A stretch of 47,933 bases of DNA from Bacillota bacterium. GTDB lineage: Bacteria; Bacillota; Clostridia; DSM-8532. The notes under the pieces are model-generated. The model did no database searches, was not told where the DNA came from, and saw only the letters and a list, made by a program, of their open reading frames with translations. The stretch lies in the NCBI GenBank assembly GCA_022702935.2, contig JAKIML020000090.1, positions 1-47,933 on the forward strand. The letters are read 5' to 3'. A program made the position numbers and the translations under genes. How positions within the stretch are numbered: the stretch's first letter is position 1; the number at the start of each line of letters is the position of its first letter. Positions 19,959 to 30,645 of the stretch are shown piece by piece.

Positions 19959-21128
19959 TTAATGATGGAAGAGGCGAAGTCCTGTAAAGCACATGACCAT
20001 GCCATATTGGTTGCAGGCCTTAATGACCTCTTCATCCCTCACCGAGCCTCCGGGCTGGGCAACGTACTTCACATTGCTCATGGCCGCTCTGTCAATATTG
20101 TCCTTGAACGGAATGAAGGCATCGGAGGAATAGGCGACGCCCTGGAAGGATTTAATCCAATCCGCCTTCTCCTGGGCTGTCAGCTTTTGGGGAACCTCCT
20201 CAAAGAGGGTCATCCATTCGCTGATTTCTACCTCGGTCGCATCATCCCTCAGATAGAGATCAATGGCATTATCAATAACAGGGTTTTTGAGCCCTTCCTT
20301 AAACTTCAAAGAAAGCACCTTGGGATGCTGGCGCAGCATCCAGATATCAGCCTTGCTGGCAGCCAGACGGGTACAGTGAATACGGGATTGCTGTCCTGCC
20401 CCGCACCCGATAACCTGTCCGTCATAGGCAAAGCAAATGGAATTGGACTGGGTGTATTTCAAGGTAATGGTGGCAATCAAAAGGTCCCGAATGGCCTGCG
20501 GGGGCAAGCTCTTGTTGTCGGTGACAATATTGGCAAAGAGCTCCTTGCTAATCACCGCATTATTTCTCTGCTGCTCCAGAGTAATGCCAAAGATATCACG
20601 GCTTTCCAGGGGCTCGGGCTGATAGTCGGGATCAATCTGCATGATCACATAGCCGCCCTTCTTCTTTGCCTTAAGTATTTCCAAAGCCTCGGCCTCATAA
20701 CCGGGAGCGATGATACCATCCGACACCTCTTTGGACAGGAGCTTGGCCGTATCCAGATCCACTGTGTCACTGATGGCAATAAAATCTCCGAAGGAGGAAA
20801 CCCGGTCAGCACCCCGGGCGCGGGCATAGGCCGTCGCCACAAGCGAGAGTTCCATTCCTTCCACGTGATAGGCTTTCTTAAGGGCTTCGCTTAATGGGTT
20901 GGCAACTGCGGCACCAGCGGGACTGACATGCTTAAAGGATGTGGCCGAAGGCAGCCCCGTTGCCTCTTTGAGTTCCTTAACTAACTGCCAGGCATTAAGT
21001 GCATCGGCAAAATTGATAAAGCTGGGGGTTCCGTTAAGAATACTTAAGGGCAGCTCACCCTGCTTCATATATACCCTGCAGGGCTTTTGATGCGGATTGC
21101 AGCCGTATTTTACAGAAAGTTCGTGCAT
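19959..21128 (-). CDS. purH: Stand-alone AICAR transformylase (PurH C-terminal half)
   Basis: Catalyses the ninth step of purine synthesis, formylating AICAR with 10-formyl-THF to FAICAR. At 389 residues it is only the transformylase half of usual PurH (about 510); no IMP cyclohydrolase domain is fused. The motif SFKHVSPAG (K66-H67) contains the catalytic Lys-His pair, and YTQSNSICFAYDGQVIGCGAGQQSR is the substrate/folate pocket block. I choose the ATG at 21128, preceded by GGGGAGGAAAT, over an in-frame start seven codons upstream. The missing cyclohydrolase step is supplied by the gene just upstream, 22 bases away. Confidence 0.92.
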   Translation of the reverse strand: MHELSVKYGCNPHQKPCRVYMKQGELPLSILNGTPSFINFADALNAWQLVKELKEATGLPSATSFKHVSPAGAAVANPLSEALKKAYHVEGMELSLVATAYARARGADRVSSFGDFIAISDTVDLDTAKLLSKEVSDGIIAPGYEAEALEILKAKKKGGYVIMQIDPDYQPEPLESRDIFGITLEQQRNNAVISKELFANIVTDNKSLPPQAIRDLLIATITLKYTQSNSICFAYDGQVIGCGAGQQSRIHCTRLAASKADIWMLRQHPKVLSLKFKEGLKNPVIDNAIDLYLRDDATEVEISEWMTLFEEVPQKLTAQEKADWIKSFQGVAYSSDAFIPFKDNIDRAAMSNVKYVAQPGGSVRDEEVIKACNQYGMVMCFTGLRLFHH

Positions 21129-21150
21129 GGTTATTTCCTCCCCTGACAAC

Positions 21151-21873
21151 TTATTTCGTATGACGATTCTTGATTTTTATATCCACTTGTCCCGTTTTGA
21201 TGTCAATGGTCTTGACCAAAAGGGAGACCCGGTTCTCCGGATTCAAAAGCTCCCAATAATACTCCAAAGCCGCGTCAATGCTGTCAGGGATGGGCATGGG
21301 ATAGGGCTCACCTGTAAAGGAGGGCAGCACCTCACCATCGCCCGCATAGGTATGTATGCAATGGCCAAAGCCATTTATGGGCTTTTCATAGTTATAGAAA
21401 TAGCGCACACAGGTCTCAGGATTATTGTCCAGGGTTTTTAAAATGGACAGGGCGTAGGCATGCTTGCCACCCAACTCCATCATCCCCGTAATTCTGGGGG
21501 TGTAATTGGGTGCGTCGGGCTCAAATTCGCGCGTAGACAGCGCTTCTTCGAAGCTTACCCCTGTCTTAAGATAGTCGTACACCGTATCTGTCTGATCTCC
21601 GTTGGAGATAATATGATATTTGCCAAAGGCTTTTAAGGGATAATAAATAATCAGGGACGGATCGGTCAGCTTGCTTTCATCAAAGGCCTTGGTTCTGACA
21701 AAGCCGTTCTCCTCAACGAAAATTCTGTTTCTGCTGTTCTCACTGCGGCCCATAATCCAATAGACCTGAACCAGCTTTTGACCGTCCGGTGTCACACCCA
21801 GAACAATGCCGCGTCCGGGGTACACATTCTTTTTAAGGTTCTCTGCGTTTTTCTCGGCAGTCTGTCTCAACAT
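21151..21873 (-). CDS. purO: PurO-type IMP cyclohydrolase
   Basis: A 240-residue protein of the IMP_cyclohyd family, best known from archaeal PurO, which closes FAICAR to IMP. Recognisable parts are NVYPGRGIVLGVTPDGQKLV, QVYWIMGRSENSRNRIF and NYTPRITGM. The start is placed at the ATG after AAGGAAGGAG; an in-frame start nine codons upstream overlaps that Shine-Dalgarno. It forms a two-gene unit with the AICAR transformylase, together replacing bifunctional PurH. The pairing makes the functional call stronger than either protein alone. Confidence 0.85.
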   Translation of the reverse strand: MLRQTAEKNAENLKKNVYPGRGIVLGVTPDGQKLVQVYWIMGRSENSRNRIFVEENGFVRTKAFDESKLTDPSLIIYYPLKAFGKYHIISNGDQTDTVYDYLKTGVSFEEALSTREFEPDAPNYTPRITGMMELGGKHAYALSILKTLDNNPETCVRYFYNYEKPINGFGHCIHTYAGDGEVLPSFTGEPYPMPIPDSIDAALEYYWELLNPENRVSLLVKTIDIKTGQVDIKIKNRHTK

Positions 21874-22033
21874 CGGTGCACTCCTTCCTTTGTTTGACAA
21901 TTTCTAAACAAATTCATTGTACATGAATTTATAGAGTGCAACAAGGGTGAAACACACCAATATTGGCCTTGGCTCAAGCAAACCCGTTAGACAAATTTAG
22001 CAAACCTTTGAGACCTGCGGCAACGGACCTGTT

Positions 22034-22661: not shown

Positions 22662-22690
22662 TTGACAGGAAGAAGGGTTGGGCTTATGAT
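22662..22690 (+). promoter_or_regulatory. Strong sigma-A promoter for the folded RNA
   Basis: TTGACA (22662-22667), exactly 17 bases, TATGAT (22685-22690, 5 of 6). It is among the best promoter matches in the window, yet no protein gene begins within 300 bases. Predicted transcription start about 22697. Confidence 0.75.
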
Positions 22691-22696
22691 GAAAGG

Positions 22697-22900
22697 GAAA
22701 ATAAACACATAATGTAAATGAGGAGTTTTGATGTCGGTAAGCGACTTGGCTTAATTCAGTTGAATAGGTTCAAAGCATGCAAAATCAAGCCTTGTATAGG
22801 CTTATTGATCTTGCTGTTTGAACACAAACTGTAAGTCAAGGACAATTACGGCATAGCCAGGAGGAAAATAGCGCCGTTCGTCGTTGCGAACGGATTTTTT
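22697..22900 (+). ncRNA. Unidentified structured RNA of about 200 nt (6S-like rod or leader RNA)
   Basis: It lies between the strong promoter at 22662 and the terminator ending at 22900, in a 444-base gap. The middle folds into nested helices forming one rod: 22745-22752 with 22833-22840 (one G-U), 22757-22761 with 22827-22831, 22768-22774 with 22817-22823, 22779-22782 with 22811-22814, 22784-22788 with 22805-22809, and tip 22789-22792 with 22798-22801. No reading frame of note fills it. A long rod with internal bulges and about 200 nt length recalls 6S RNA, but I do not see enough to claim it. I recognised no known riboswitch core. It may instead be a leader of the MutS2-like gene. Confidence 0.55.
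22874..22900 (+). terminator. Rho-independent terminator of the RNA
   Basis: Stem CCGTTCG (22874-22880) with CGAACGG (22887-22893), 6-base loop, then A and six T. Textbook form; it defines the 3' end of the RNA candidate. Confidence 0.85.
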
Positions 22901-22963
22901 ATGCCCTTTTTTCCCTCTTTGCCATGCCTGGAACGCTACACCGGCATCTTCACATTCCTGTTG

Positions 22964-22998
22964 GGCCGTGCGGTAATATTTGTCCGCACGGCCTTTTT
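22964..22998 (+). terminator. Second terminator hairpin just before the MutS2-like gene
   Basis: Perfect 10-bp stem GGCCGTGCGG (22964-22973) with CCGCACGGCC (22984-22993), loop of 10, then TTTTT. It ends only about 15 bases before the Shine-Dalgarno of the next gene, so any transcript entering from upstream must pass it. That is the placement of an attenuator. I could not find a convincing alternative antiterminator pairing by eye. Confidence 0.75.
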
Positions 22999-23023
22999 AT
23001 TTGAAACGAGGAGGAATTTTCCC

Positions 23024-24988
23024 ATGAACCAGACTTCTCTTGAAATTCTGGAATTTAACGAAATCAAGCGTATGCTGGAATCCTTTACCCTGTCGACCCT
23101 GGGAAGAAATCTGGCCGCTCAGATCGCACCTGAAACCGATGCCATGATCATTGACAATCGGCTGAACGAAACCTTAGAGGCCCGAAGGCTTCTGGATAAG
23201 GGCTCGGGTGTTCCTTTAAGCAGCCTCAACGGCATTGAAAAGATTATGGAGAGACTGGACAAAACATCGGCGCTCCAGCCTGAAGAGCTATGGACACTCA
23301 GGGACATGCTCACCGGCGCAGCACGCATGATACGCTATATGAGCGAAAGAATCATGATTGCGCCCACTGTTGCCGCCTATGCCTCTTCCATGTTCGATCT
23401 TTCGGATCTGGTAAGCGAGATTGAGCGATGTATCCTGGATAATCGGGTGGATGACAAGGCCTCGTCCGAGCTGTCACGGATCCGCAAGCGCATGGCCATT
23501 GTGGAGGATCGTATTGAAAGCAAACTTAACAGCATACTGCACTCCCCGGCCTATAAGGATATCCTTCAGGAGGCTGTGGTGAGCATTCGGGGCGGAAGCT
23601 ATGTCATCCCCATCAAGCGGGAGCATAAGCGGTCCATGGACGGAGCCGTCCTGGACGTTTCCTCCAGTGGCTCCACCGTTTTTGTTGAGCCATCGGCCAT
23701 CAGAGCCCTGAAATCCGAGCTGGACCTCTTAAAGGCCGAGGAAGAAAAAGAGGTGTTTAAAATCCTCTCTTACCTGACGGGGATGGCCGAGAGCTATAAA
23801 AAAGAGATTCTCATCAATATCCAGACCATGGCCCATTATGACTTTGTCTTTGCCAAGGCCAAGCTGGCCAACAGCATGCAGGCCGTCCGCCCCATGATTA
23901 ATTTGGATCACAGAATTGTCATTCGTGAGGGTCGGCATCCGCTGTTAGGTCAGAAAGCTGTTCCCCTGAACTTCGCCATAGGTGAGGACTACCGAGCCCT
24001 GGTCATAACCGGACCTAATACGGGCGGTAAAACGGTGGTGCTGAAAACTGTAGGTCTATTCTCCATCATGGCCCAGTCAGGACTCCATGTCCCTGCTGCA
24101 GAGGGCACTGAGTTGGGGATATTCACCGATGTGCTGGCCGATATTGGGGATGGGCAGAGCATCCAACAGTCCTTGAGTACCTTCTCCTCCCATATCCGCA
24201 ACATCATTGGGATTTTGGAATGCGCTGGGCCAGACACCCTGGTCATTATGGACGAGTTGGGAACGGGAACCGACCCGGCCGAGGGCATGGGTCTGGCCGT
24301 TGCGGTCATGGAAAGGCTCTATACCAAGGGCTGTATTATGATATGCACCACCCACTACAGCGAGATCAAGGAATTCGCCAGAATTACTCCCGGTTTCAAA
24401 AACGGATGCATGCTCTTTGACGTAAAGACCCTTCTTCCCCTGTATCGTCTGAGCATTGGTATTCCGGGTGAAAGCAATGCCTTTCTCATCTCACTGAGGC
24501 TTGGTATGGACCCGCAAATCATCCAAAGGGCGCATTACATCACCTATAAGGAACATAAACCCTATGAGCGCCCTGTTGTTACTACCGAAGAAAATAAGCC
24601 CCAGCCCCTGATGAATGAGGACATCATACGCACCCATGAGACCAATAAGGCCCAGACCCAAAGAAGGCTGGAGGCCAGGAAAAAAGCAGAGAAACAACGC
24701 ATTGAATCTCCCTATAAGGTGGGCGACTGTGTCTTTATTACCAGCATGAACCGAACCGGCATAGTCTGTGAACCCGAAAACGCCAAGGGTGAAATCGGCG
24801 TTATGGTGATGAAAAAACGGCTGATGGTCAGCAAGAAACGCATTCGGCCCTTTATTGACGGCAAGGACCTCTATCCCGAGGACTATGATCTGGACATTGT
24901 TCTTGAAAGCAAGGAGGACAGAAAAAAGAAGCATCTCATGCAAAAACGCCATGTGGAAGGGCTCACACTGGAGCATAGGAAAGGATGA
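23024..24988 (+). CDS. MutS2-like ATPase lacking the Smr nuclease domain
   Basis: 654 residues. The start is the ATG behind GAGGAGGAA; the frame is open 41 codons upstream but that part runs through a terminator hairpin. Order: MutS2-type N-terminus (LEILEFNEIKRMLE), core helices and clamp (~120-310, with SSGSTVFVEPSA), then the ATPase with Walker A GPNTGGKT (330-337) and Walker B MDELGTGTDPAEG (D410-E411), and a Lys/Arg-rich C-terminal region (~520-654). MutS2 is normally ~780 residues with a C-terminal Smr domain, absent here. MutS2 proteins suppress recombination or split collided ribosomes; this short form may do neither in the same way. Followed within 5 bases by an ABC transporter gene. 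Confidence 0.88.
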   Translation: MNQTSLEILEFNEIKRMLESFTLSTLGRNLAAQIAPETDAMIIDNRLNETLEARRLLDKGSGVPLSSLNGIEKIMERLDKTSALQPEELWTLRDMLTGAARMIRYMSERIMIAPTVAAYASSMFDLSDLVSEIERCILDNRVDDKASSELSRIRKRMAIVEDRIESKLNSILHSPAYKDILQEAVVSIRGGSYVIPIKREHKRSMDGAVLDVSSSGSTVFVEPSAIRALKSELDLLKAEEEKEVFKILSYLTGMAESYKKEILINIQTMAHYDFVFAKAKLANSMQAVRPMINLDHRIVIREGRHPLLGQKAVPLNFAIGEDYRALVITGPNTGGKTVVLKTVGLFSIMAQSGLHVPAAEGTELGIFTDVLADIGDGQSIQQSLSTFSSHIRNIIGILECAGPDTLVIMDELGTGTDPAEGMGLAVAVMERLYTKGCIMICTTHYSEIKEFARITPGFKNGCMLFDVKTLLPLYRLSIGIPGESNAFLISLRLGMDPQIIQRAHYITYKEHKPYERPVVTTEENKPQPLMNEDIIRTHETNKAQTQRRLEARKKAEKQRIESPYKVGDCVFITSMNRTGIVCEPENAKGEIGVMVMKKRLMVSKKRIRPFIDGKDLYPEDYDLDIVLESKEDRKKKHLMQKRHVEGLTLEHRKG

Positions 24989-24993
24989 AATGA

Positions 24994-25986
24994 ATGAATA
25001 CAGTGATTCAAACCAAAGGCCTTACCAAGGTATTTAAAAGAGTTGAGAAAGAGGATGGCTTGAAAGGCACGTTAAAAGCTCTCTTCAAAAGAGTTATTGT
25101 CGAGAAGACCGCCCTGGACCATTTCGATTTCCAGGTTGAGCAGGGAGAGCTCCTAGGTCTCATTGGCCCCAATGGAGCTGGCAAGACCACACTGGTTAAG
25201 CTCCTTTGCGGTATTATTCAGCCCTCTGCCGGAGAAGCTCAGGTTCTGGGCTTCACCCCCGGCAAGCTCAAGGATGGATTCAGAAGGAGCTATGCGGTGG
25301 TCATGGGCCAAAAAAGCCAGCTCTGGTGGGACCTCCCTGCCTCGGACACCTTCCTTCTTAATAAAGAGATCTATGGCATACCGGATGACATTTATAAACA
25401 GAATATCGCTTATTTCAGTGACATCTTCGGGGTCAGGGACCTTCTATCGGTTCCTGTCCGGAATCTGTCCCTGGGAGAGCGCATGAAGATGGAGCTCATG
25501 GCCGCCCTTTTGCATAACCCAAAGATTCTTTTTCTGGATGAGCCCACCATAGGATTGGATGCCATTGCCCAAAAGCAAATCCGCCTCTTTCTGAAAGAGG
25601 TCAATGAAACTAAGGGCGTCACCATTATGCTGACCAGCCACTACATGGAGGATATCAAGCATTTATGCAAGCGTACCGTGGTCATCAACGGCGGTAAAAA
25701 GGTCTATGATGGGAATCTGGATGCGCTTTTGAGCAGCTTCCAGGAGCATCGGATAATAACCGTCAGCTTTGAATGTGAATGCCAGCCGCAGCTTGATCTG
25801 CCTGTGGAATGGCTGGAGAAAAGTCCTCTCAAATCGGTTTTGATGGTGAGAAGGGAGCTTGTCAAGCCGGTGATCCAAAGTCTGCTCACCCACTATGAAG
25901 TCAACGACATCAGAATCGAGGAGGAGGATATTGGCGGTGTCATTGAGCGGATTTATACGGCGGGAAAGGAGGGAATCCCCTTATGA
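24994..25986 (+). CDS. ABC-2 exporter ATP-binding protein
   Basis: A 330-residue ATPase: Walker A GPNGAGKTT (58-66), signature LSLGERMKMEL, Walker B ILFLDEPTIGLD, switch TSHYMED. The insertion before the Walker A (VEKTALDHFDFQV, with KRVEKEDGLKGTLKALFKR ahead) and the C-terminal ~80 residues place it with ATPases that pair with ABC2_membrane_6 (DUF990) permeases. It begins 5 bases after the MutS2-like stop and its end overlaps the first permease start (25983-25986), so the four genes read as one operon. Substrate unknown. Confidence 0.92.
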   Translation: MNTVIQTKGLTKVFKRVEKEDGLKGTLKALFKRVIVEKTALDHFDFQVEQGELLGLIGPNGAGKTTLVKLLCGIIQPSAGEAQVLGFTPGKLKDGFRRSYAVVMGQKSQLWWDLPASDTFLLNKEIYGIPDDIYKQNIAYFSDIFGVRDLLSVPVRNLSLGERMKMELMAALLHNPKILFLDEPTIGLDAIAQKQIRLFLKEVNETKGVTIMLTSHYMEDIKHLCKRTVVINGGKKVYDGNLDALLSSFQEHRIITVSFECECQPQLDLPVEWLEKSPLKSVLMVRRELVKPVIQSLLTHYEVNDIRIEEEDIGGVIERIYTAGKEGIPL

Positions 25987-26777
25987 GAAAGTATCTGGAG
26001 GTAGGCAAAATCAGCGTAAAGTCTCAGATAACCTACCGTTTCGACGTTCTTATTGGATGCTTCATGCCCTTTATCAGGGTTTTTCTGGCCTATTTTCTAT
26101 GGCGTACCCTCTTTACAGACAAGACCGAAATGGGCGGCATGACCTTCCCCATGATGCTCACCTACTATATTGTCTGTGCCTTTATCCAAAGGCTTGAGCA
26201 GTCAAATGGTCTGGTCTGGGAATTTGCCGGTGAGATTCGTGAGGGACGCTTTACCAAGTATCTGGTCAAGCCGGTCAGCCCCCTGGGTCATTTTGTCTTC
26301 ACCAGCCTGGGCAAGACCCTCTATCACCTTGTCTTTACCGTACTGGCTGTGGGCTGTGTCATCTTGATTTTCAAGGGGCAGTTCGTGGGCCCCGCCTCGG
26401 CGGGCAGCCTTATCTTAGCCCTGTTGATCGCCTTCCTGGGGCTTCTGGTGATGATTCTTCTCAACTACCTGACCGCGCTATTGGCATTTAAGTTTACTGA
26501 CATTACCGGCTGGCATCTTCTAAATGGAAACGTGGTGGACTTTCTCTCCGGTGCCCTGCTTCCTCTCTCCCTGCTTCCTGATTGGATGCAAGGCGTCATG
26601 CGGTATTTTCCCTTCTACTACATGCAGTTCCTTCCGGCCAGCCTATACCTGGGCCTGAGAACTCAGGAAGCCTTTTTCGGCCTTCTGGTCATGGTAATCT
26701 GGATCATCGTCCTTTGGGGGCTTGCCGAATTCCTCTACCATCGTTTCAGACGTTTATACGAGGAGGTGGGCGCATGA
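25983..26777 (+). CDS. ABC-2 type permease, first subunit (DUF990-like)
   Basis: 264 residues with about six membrane helices. The motif EIREGRFTKYLVKPVSPLGH in the cytoplasmic loop is characteristic of the ABC2_membrane_6 family. It starts within the ATPase gene's end and overlaps the second permease (ATGA, 26774-26777). With the next protein it forms the membrane channel of a three-component exporter. Confidence 0.88.
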   Translation: MRKYLEVGKISVKSQITYRFDVLIGCFMPFIRVFLAYFLWRTLFTDKTEMGGMTFPMMLTYYIVCAFIQRLEQSNGLVWEFAGEIREGRFTKYLVKPVSPLGHFVFTSLGKTLYHLVFTVLAVGCVILIFKGQFVGPASAGSLILALLIAFLGLLVMILLNYLTALLAFKFTDITGWHLLNGNVVDFLSGALLPLSLLPDWMQGVMRYFPFYYMQFLPASLYLGLRTQEAFFGLLVMVIWIIVLWGLAEFLYHRFRRLYEEVGA

Positions 26778-27583
26778 AAGGGATTTCTATCCTGCGTCGA
26801 TATCTAGGAATCTTTATTCGATTATTTAAATTCAGGCTCTCCAACCAGATGATTTATCGCGCCAGCTTCTGGACAGTCTTCATTGTGGATGTGTCCATGT
26901 TTCTCATTCAGCTTGCCGTATTCTCCACCCTGTTTTTGAATGTGGACACCATCAATGGCTGGAACAAATATCAGATGATCTTTTTTGTGGGAACCTTCAA
27001 TATCATTGATTCTATCAATATGTCCCTGTTCTTCTTTGGGATTACCAGTATCCCCTATAAGATCCGTGAGGGCAAGCTGGACATTTATCTGACCAGACCC
27101 GTCAATACACTGTTCTGGCTTTCTCTGGAGAATATTGATGTAAGCTCAACCATAGTCATTATCCCCGGTGTCATCATGGTGAGCTATGCAACCGCAAAAC
27201 TGGGTATTACATTGACCTTTGGAAAGGTGGCGGGGTATTTGCTGCTGCTTATCCTTATGCTTCTTTTATTCTATAGCTTGATGCTCATTATCCGCACCCT
27301 GTCCTTCTGGTTTATCAAAACCGATGCTTTGAACGATCTGGAAGGCGAGATGATTGGTTTCAGCTTCCGTGTACCCGGCATTGTTTTTACGGGCGTATCC
27401 AAGCTGGTGCTCTATGTGCTCCTGCCCTACGCCCTCCTGGCCACCCTGCCCACCCAGTACTTTACCACCAGCTTTTCCCTGGGGCACTGGGCTCTGGCTC
27501 TGGGCGTAACTTCTGCCTTTGTCCTAATCTCACAGTGGCTTTGGCGGCTGGGCCTCAAGAACTATACCAGTGCCAGCAGCTAG
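26774..27583 (+). CDS. ABC-2 type permease, second subunit (DUF990-like)
   Basis: 269 residues, about six helices. KIREGKLDIYLTRPVNTLFWL is the paralogous counterpart of the loop motif in the preceding permease. I place the start at the coupled ATG (26774); the longer open frame upstream lies inside the first permease gene. Likely last gene of the MutS2-like/ABC operon. I see no clear intrinsic terminator in the 119 bases after it. Confidence 0.88.
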   Translation: MKGISILRRYLGIFIRLFKFRLSNQMIYRASFWTVFIVDVSMFLIQLAVFSTLFLNVDTINGWNKYQMIFFVGTFNIIDSINMSLFFFGITSIPYKIREGKLDIYLTRPVNTLFWLSLENIDVSSTIVIIPGVIMVSYATAKLGITLTFGKVAGYLLLLILMLLLFYSLMLIIRTLSFWFIKTDALNDLEGEMIGFSFRVPGIVFTGVSKLVLYVLLPYALLATLPTQYFTTSFSLGHWALALGVTSAFVLISQWLWRLGLKNYTSASS

Positions 27584-30432: not shown

Positions 30433-30465
30433 TAGTGCACCTCCTTAAGCGTAATAAAAGATATC

Positions 30466-30605
30466 AAAAAACCCTTTCATAATCCAACCATAGACTATGA
30501 AAGGGTTTTAATCGCCCATTCAGAGATTACCTCGGCAGGATGATTTACGTTACATCCGCAGTATTATTTACATACCCGGATTCCTGCTGTCTACAGTCAG
30601 ATGTT
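30466..30605 (-). promoter_or_regulatory. L10 ribosomal protein leader with attenuator
   Basis: On the minus strand, GTAGACAGCAGG near 30590 pairs with the segment CCTGCCGAGGTAA near 30535, the known core of Firmicute L10 leaders. A terminator follows: a 14-bp stem (30468-30481 with 30496-30509) and six T, ending about 34 bases before rplJ. In the established model L10-(L12) binds the leader and favours termination, setting the rplJL level relative to upstream rplK-rplA. Confidence 0.85.
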
Positions 30606-30645
30606 AAGTTTTCATACATGCGACATTTTATAATATCACAATGTA

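Follow-up and report, generated by a model that had tools for sequence, protein, structure and literature searches.

The element described here lies between 22662 and 22900 on the forward strand of the window, the whole 47,933-nt stretch of DNA that was analysed, and is followed on the same strand by the gene for a short paralogue of MutS2. The features of the locus, whose transcription probably starts near 22697, are as follows.

22662..22690, plus strand: promoter, -35 TTGACA, 17-nt spacer, -10 TATGAT; 11 of 12 consensus letters
22720..22725, plus strand: Shine-Dalgarno (SD) sequence GAGGAG of the leader ORF; SD-like match upstream of the ORF in homologous loci
22731..22754, plus strand: leader ORF of 7 codons, MSVSDLA and stop; kept across short-MutS2 loci
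22745..22753, plus strand: 5' arm of helix P1, within the last ORF codons and the stop (fold and group A alignment)
22755..22831, plus strand: inner rod-like hairpin (fold), differing in length and sequence from locus to locus
22832..22840, plus strand: 3' arm of P1, TAAGTCAAG (fold and group A alignment)
22847..22852, plus strand: candidate antiterminator strand TACGGC, complement of the 5' arm of terminator 1
22873..22900, plus strand: terminator 1, stem 22874-22893 and T-run
about 22963..22999, plus strand: terminator 2, directly 5' of the gene
23024..24988, plus strand: short MutS2 paralogue, 654 aa, with MutS2 core, ATPase and KOW-like segment and without Smr

The initial annotation had proposed a near-consensus promoter (TTGACA-17-TATGAT), a stable fold and a terminator, and all three were borne out. 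The 207 nt from 22697 (22697-22903) have a folding energy of -58.5 kcal/mol, compared with -43.7 +/- 4.3 in shuffled sequences (z -3.5), and the stem and T-run of the terminator occupy 22874-22900. A promoter scan returned one site against a shuffle mean of 2.2, i.e. not above shuffles; by eye, a pair resembling TTGACA and TATGAT was seen 5' of the leader ORF in several homologous loci. The description of the region as non-coding and without a gene failed, as a conserved, SD-led ORF reading ATG TCG GTA AGC GAC TTG GCT TAA is present at 22731-22754 and a same-strand gene begins at 23024.

A 6S homologue had also been suggested, and 6S RNA does share with the element the form of a rod-like RNA of about 200 nt. 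However, the 6S RNA model (RF00013) had no match at the locus at its gathering threshold, and the best 6S-type score here, that of the 6S-Flavo model on the element in a permissive scan, was 21.2 bits against a threshold of 85. The 6S RNA of this genome is on another contig (G000:C101; 67.4 bits, cut-off 46.4), and the element differs from 6S RNA further in containing a conserved ORF and in preceding a gene. At gathering thresholds, Rfam reported only a ribosomal protein L10 leader in the whole window (RF00557, 53.5 bits; 30457-30614, minus strand) and no described family over the element; the scan of 20 sources, the window locus (L014) and 19 others, gave tRNAs and one ZTP riboswitch, none of them at a leader. 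The alternative suggestion of an undescribed structured RNA therefore stands as far as Rfam goes, but as an ORF-bearing leader and not as a gene-free RNA.

The short MutS2 paralogue and its distribution

The window protein has a MutS2-type core and ATPase, matching TIGR01069 with 627 bits (cut-off 400) over profile positions 2-529 of 790, and Pfam returned MutS_V only, with no Smr and no KOW family match. It aligns with Bacillus subtilis MutS2 (PDB 8qpp, 7qv3) and its structural model is alike (mean pLDDT 83). The conserved C-terminal KOW-like segment was modelled as five short strands (pLDDT about 70-85), and an alignment of 23 short proteins shows it in the tail together with a conserved LYPExYD...ENRK motif. 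After trimming, most canonical MutS2 proteins have about 785 aa. A custom Smr model, for which these canonical proteins were themselves the source, detected Smr in 19 of the 21 proteins first filed as canonical and in none of the 66 short proteins, of which that of locus L050 has only 572 aa. Two proteins first filed as canonical, G032 and G019, are without Smr, cluster with the short proteins and have leaders. In a FastTree phylogeny of the 66 short and the 21 first-filed canonical proteins, for which canonical proteins came from the window's own order only and branch supports were not inspected, the short proteins, G019 and G032 formed one group apart from the other 19. A search for phage-borne copies gave three viral matches of 30-40% identity, none extending past residue 565, and the idea was set aside.

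DNA similarity located the element in five of 32 family genomes, its own included, each time 5' of a same-strand mutS2-like gene. The protein search in the order yielded two kinds of MutS2, canonical and short, and the genome of the window has both. Short MutS2 proteins were present in at least 23 of 391 genomes of the class, in at least 27 of 398 genomes distributed across the phylum, taken to be Bacillota, in 15 of 58 genomes in the order of G163 and in nine of 22 in that of G362. The four sets overlap, and the threshold used for them (E <= 1e-140) makes the class and phylum counts lower bounds. A second MutS2 is thereby found in several percent of this phylum's genomes. The leader ORF is also present at three loci on plasmids (Cytobacillus spongiae and two Paenibacillus). 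In two annotated records, the product of the short gene is given as 'endonuclease MutS2' in one and 'DNA mismatch repair protein MutS' in the other.

Immediately 3' of the short mutS2 of the window, 24994-27583 encodes an ABC transporter ATPase (best subfamily match drrA, below cut-off) and apparent permeases; an ABC transporter follows the short gene in five of 14 loci (the window, L007, L016, L019 and L065, the latter four by reading). On the other side, at 19959-21900 on the minus strand, an AICAR transformylase (396 aa, best NCBIfam match PRK07106) adjoins a protein that resembles IMP cyclohydrolase and is weakly similar to archaeal PurO.

Leader ORF, P1 helix and terminators

A leader ORF with an SD was found in 69 of the 70 short-MutS2 loci with upstream DNA, a count composed of 64 of 65 fetched loci, the two loci first filed as canonical (G032 and G019) and the three plasmid loci; in the 70th (G020) a contig end 127 nt upstream cuts it off. 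The ORFs were picked by eye. An SD-like match of at least four letters lies 5' of the ORF in 68 of the 69. Of the leaders, 34 have 7 codons and 25 have 11 (together 59), 50 end in Asn and 10 in Ala (together 60), and 50 have Ser as residue 2. Examples are MSVSDLA, MSVIYLA and MSASILA for class A (group A), MLGVVLN, MSVSVLN and MSESVHN for class B, and MSVSSVKVIFN and MSVLSVKVINN for class C. Alternative codons are used among the ORFs for start and stop and for Ser, Val, Ala and Asn: in 64 loci the starts are ATG, TTG and GTG (56, 5 and 3), the stops TAA, TAG and TGA (54, 8 and 2), and the Ser at codon 2 is spelled in five ways, AGT included. Within codons 2 and 3, and likewise within three of the final four, base diversity peaks at the third position; the final sense codon ranks among the more constrained. 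Among the family loci, the alignment has a constant core, SD-ATG-TCG-GTN-NNN-NNN-TTG-GCT-TAA, with synonymous third-position changes.

Specificity was assessed with a strict rule (an SD, 6-13 codons, residue 2 S, L or I, last residue N or A, at least 150 nt upstream) that was devised post hoc, after the leaders had been seen. This rule retrieved the listed ORF in 57 of 69 short loci and in none of 17 canonical mutS2 loci, a control from which G032 had been removed, in which G019 was never included and from which G002 was left out; it fired in 54 of 3450 dinucleotide shuffles (1.6%). A loose rule was unspecific (67 of 69 short loci, three of 17 canonical loci and 42% of shuffles). The longest leaders, those of G320, G751 and G792 with 17, 26 and 20 codons respectively, lie outside the consensus and may be chance ORFs. 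The G792 leader (L098; MSAYIFVVSSVLHSSAWMGA) appears to resemble the macrolide-sensing ErmC leader with its IFVIS motif. A pattern match in G014 was set aside as chance; it falls within an opposite-strand ORF read as aroE-like.

P1 joins the end of the ORF to a downstream arm and, in the fold of the window, covers part of the stop codon. Compensatory changes, which the initial annotation had named as a means of verifying its helices, were found for P1. In the group A alignment (9 loci), 69 of 72 cells were paired and two of eight pairs had double changes, and in G022 and G021 the Ala codon is GCC instead of GCT and the P1 partner is G instead of A; group B (9 loci) has two pairs with double changes, few events that are shared by related rows, and for both groups alignment and structure derive from the same data. 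In class B (26 loci, GAAC-anchored arms), true partners paired at -12.4 kcal/mol and swapped partners at -8.4, and none of 100 composition-preserving shuffles reached this difference (z -10). Here pairing had guided the selection of the arm among GAAC sites, a bias towards matched pairs; an earlier test that made no such selection also gave p 5e-5 (16 loci). These swapped-partner tests, like those below, ignore kinship among the loci. Single-locus duplex tests against dinucleotide shuffles gave p<=0.05 for P1 in 26 of 69 loci. An attenuator calls for a helix that a ribosome on the ORF could open, and P1 has its 5' arm in the ORF and, in class B, locus-specific pairing. The leader ORF and P1 are well supported by these sequence comparisons.

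At least one terminator lies 3' of the ORF in 67 of the 69 loci and at least two in 53; the search found none in G036 and G320. Within the 520 nt upstream of the gene, at least two terminators were found in 54 of 64 short loci compared with two of 18 canonical loci, the latter still including G032, with G019 and G002 outside the control. G002 was omitted from both canonical controls because its upstream DNA is short. Polymerase would have to pass terminator 2, which in the window stands 3' of terminator 1 and directly before the gene, and for classes A and B the model put forward below does not account for this. In many class B loci, the arms of terminator 2 carry TGAAC and GTTCA, the letters of P1 (by eye). 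In L072 (G428), terminator 1 appears to have been lost and AACGGC meets the T-run directly, as if the stretch between two AACGGC copies had been deleted (by eye). The comparison of sequences establishes the leader ORF, P1, the terminators and their linkage to the short paralogue.

In groups A and B, the sequence just 3' of P1 is complementary to terminator 1 on its 5' arm (for example AACGGC with GCCGTT), and in G030 and G031 this candidate antiterminator pairing extends to the loop CTTAA (p 0.02 and 0.015). In group C the pairing is with terminator 2 instead (CAGACTGCTTC with GGAGCATTCTG), and in G656 it joins CAGATTACTTCC and GGAGTATTCTG. Swapped-partner tests gave p 0.0006 (16 loci), 0.15 (26 loci) and 0.005 (26 loci) for three registrations of class B and p 0.027 (14 loci) for class C, and did not support the pairing in group A (p 0.61, 9 loci). 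Composition control weakened the signal: class B scored z -1.9, reached by five of 100 shuffles, or z -1.0, reached by 18 of 100, when the common GAAC was removed, and class C scored z -1.5, reached by eight of 100. Single-locus duplex tests gave p<=0.05 for antiterminator pairing with the first terminator in 12 of 67 loci and with the second in five of 53. Folding with a crude ribosome footprint over the ORF end was run on 37 loci. Of the 18 that belong to classes A and B, 15 gained in sequestration of the 5' arm of the first listed terminator, four of them by 0.04 or less, and three lost; in class C most loci changed little. The antiterminator is plausible and moderately supported, and is graded no higher because the statistics are moderate and depend on registration and the footprint effect is limited.

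A further helix was detected between the 36 nt ending 12 nt 5' of the leader start codon and the spacer between the last two terminators. It scored better than swapped partners (z -4.7, none of 40 shuffles; 42 loci), with strong examples in G709, G297 and G243, and locus by locus reached p<=0.05 in eight of 42. The 36-nt arm may overlap the promoter in some loci, as it does in the window, where the helix (22697-22730 with 22901-22962) is weak (p 0.08).

Proposed attenuation of the short mutS2 gene

We propose that this stretch is the regulatory leader of the short MutS2 gene and that it attenuates transcription under the control of translation, a reading that we consider probable. Transcription from near 22697 would produce a leader with a ribosome-binding site and the 7-codon ORF. 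Once ribosomes had translated this ORF to its end and departed, the 3' half of the ORF would pair with the downstream arm to form P1, the terminator would form and transcription would stop. If a translation inhibitor or some other cause of stalling kept a ribosome close to the ORF end, that ribosome would cover the 5' arm of P1; the freed 3' region could then pair with the 5' arm of the terminator, so that polymerase reads on and short MutS2 is made. Canonical MutS2 splits stalled ribosomes (PMC10897456), and the product of the short gene therefore probably relieves the stress that its leader senses. The ribosome stall, its cause or inducer and a ribosome-splitting activity of short MutS2 are put forward here by analogy with HflXr.

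One alternative explanation is that the element is a stand-alone regulatory small RNA, 6S-like or new and possibly including a short coding segment; it would end at terminator 1, act in trans and lie before mutS2 through inherited synteny only. Its own promoter and terminator, its stable fold and the second terminator between element and gene fit this explanation. However, the Rfam scores exclude 6S, leader ORFs precede the short paralogue in remote members of the phylum as well as in three plasmid records, and the strict rule found none before the 17 canonical mutS2 genes, so that we regard this as improbable. In its gene-free form, as in the initial annotation, a small RNA is rejected because of the conserved ORF and the linkage to short mutS2; the element is a leader that carries an ORF and precedes a MutS2 paralogue, an arrangement found in 69 of 70 loci, and is most likely the start of that gene's message and not free-standing.

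Another possibility is that the leader is an amino-acid attenuator of the trp type, in which the ribosome stalls on the ORF for lack of a charged tRNA. The anatomy of ORF, alternative helix and terminator would be the same, and Asn ends 50 of the 69 leaders, but long runs of a single codon were not seen in the leaders (by eye), group A leaders end in Ala and the target is not a biosynthetic gene; this we consider very unlikely. A more serious contender, which we still hold to be rather unlikely, is a leader whose signal is translation or termination slowed overall (by release-factor shortage, starvation or cold) and not a drug. Slow termination alone could open P1, because in the window the helix takes in part of the stop codon and the final sense codon ranks among the more constrained; nothing speaks directly against such a leader. 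Short hydrophobic leaders are, however, known from drug-sensing attenuators, and the ABC transporter gene that follows in five of 14 loci also counts against it, the drrA-like match of the window being below cut-off.

Returning to attenuation by a stalled ribosome, we lean slightly towards a wider proposal, that of a phylum-wide system in which a second, Smr-less MutS2 would serve as an inducible ribosome-splitting resistance or rescue factor. One or two terminators would silence it until ribosomes stalled where a conserved leader of 7 or 11 codons ends in Asn-stop or Ala-stop; in this way the stall would induce its own remedy. If this is true, MutS2-type proteins would join the inducible ribosome-splitting factors, the leaders would provide a ready set of candidate stalling peptides with which to find the inducer, and the short MutS2 proteins would become candidates for the additional splitting factors that PMC11633108 infers for B. 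subtilis.

Relation to known systems

Leader-peptide attenuation is a known kind of regulation; the target and the breadth of this case are new as far as the literature searched shows. That literature, which was covered in part and had subscription journals and preprints outside its scope, yielded no description of a leader-attenuated short MutS2. The erm, ABC-F and tlrB-type attenuators combine a short leader peptide, stalling and alternative hairpins, as is proposed here, and differ from the present system in target gene and leader consensus.

Short MutS2 shares with canonical B. subtilis MutS2 (PDB 8qpp, 7qv3) the core, the ATPase with Walker motifs and a putative KOW-like segment, but is without Smr, has the LYPExYD...ENRK tail instead, falls into a separate group of the tree and has a leader ORF upstream. 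For the canonical protein, PMC10897456 describes hypersensitivity of B. subtilis without MutS2 to chloramphenicol, tetracycline and erythromycin, and gives the ATPase as mattering most; its authors suggest that KOW contact may suffice for partial activity without SMR.

The closest parallel in regulation is Listeria monocytogenes hflXr with its leader rli80, where the paralogue of a ribosome splitter is under leader-ORF transcription attenuation and is induced by lincomycin and erythromycin (PMC6310831). The likeness lies in the type of gene, a splitting-factor paralogue, in the small leader ORF and, on the reading proposed here, in alternative RNA folds and transcription attenuation. The Listeria system has an HflX-like protein and a 14-codon leader with an RLR motif, and its induction has been demonstrated (PMC6310831), whereas the present one has a MutS2-type protein and leaders mostly of 7 or 11 codons ending in Asn or Ala, with putative induction; here also P1 reaches the stop codon, as in the window, and the terminators are often in tandem.
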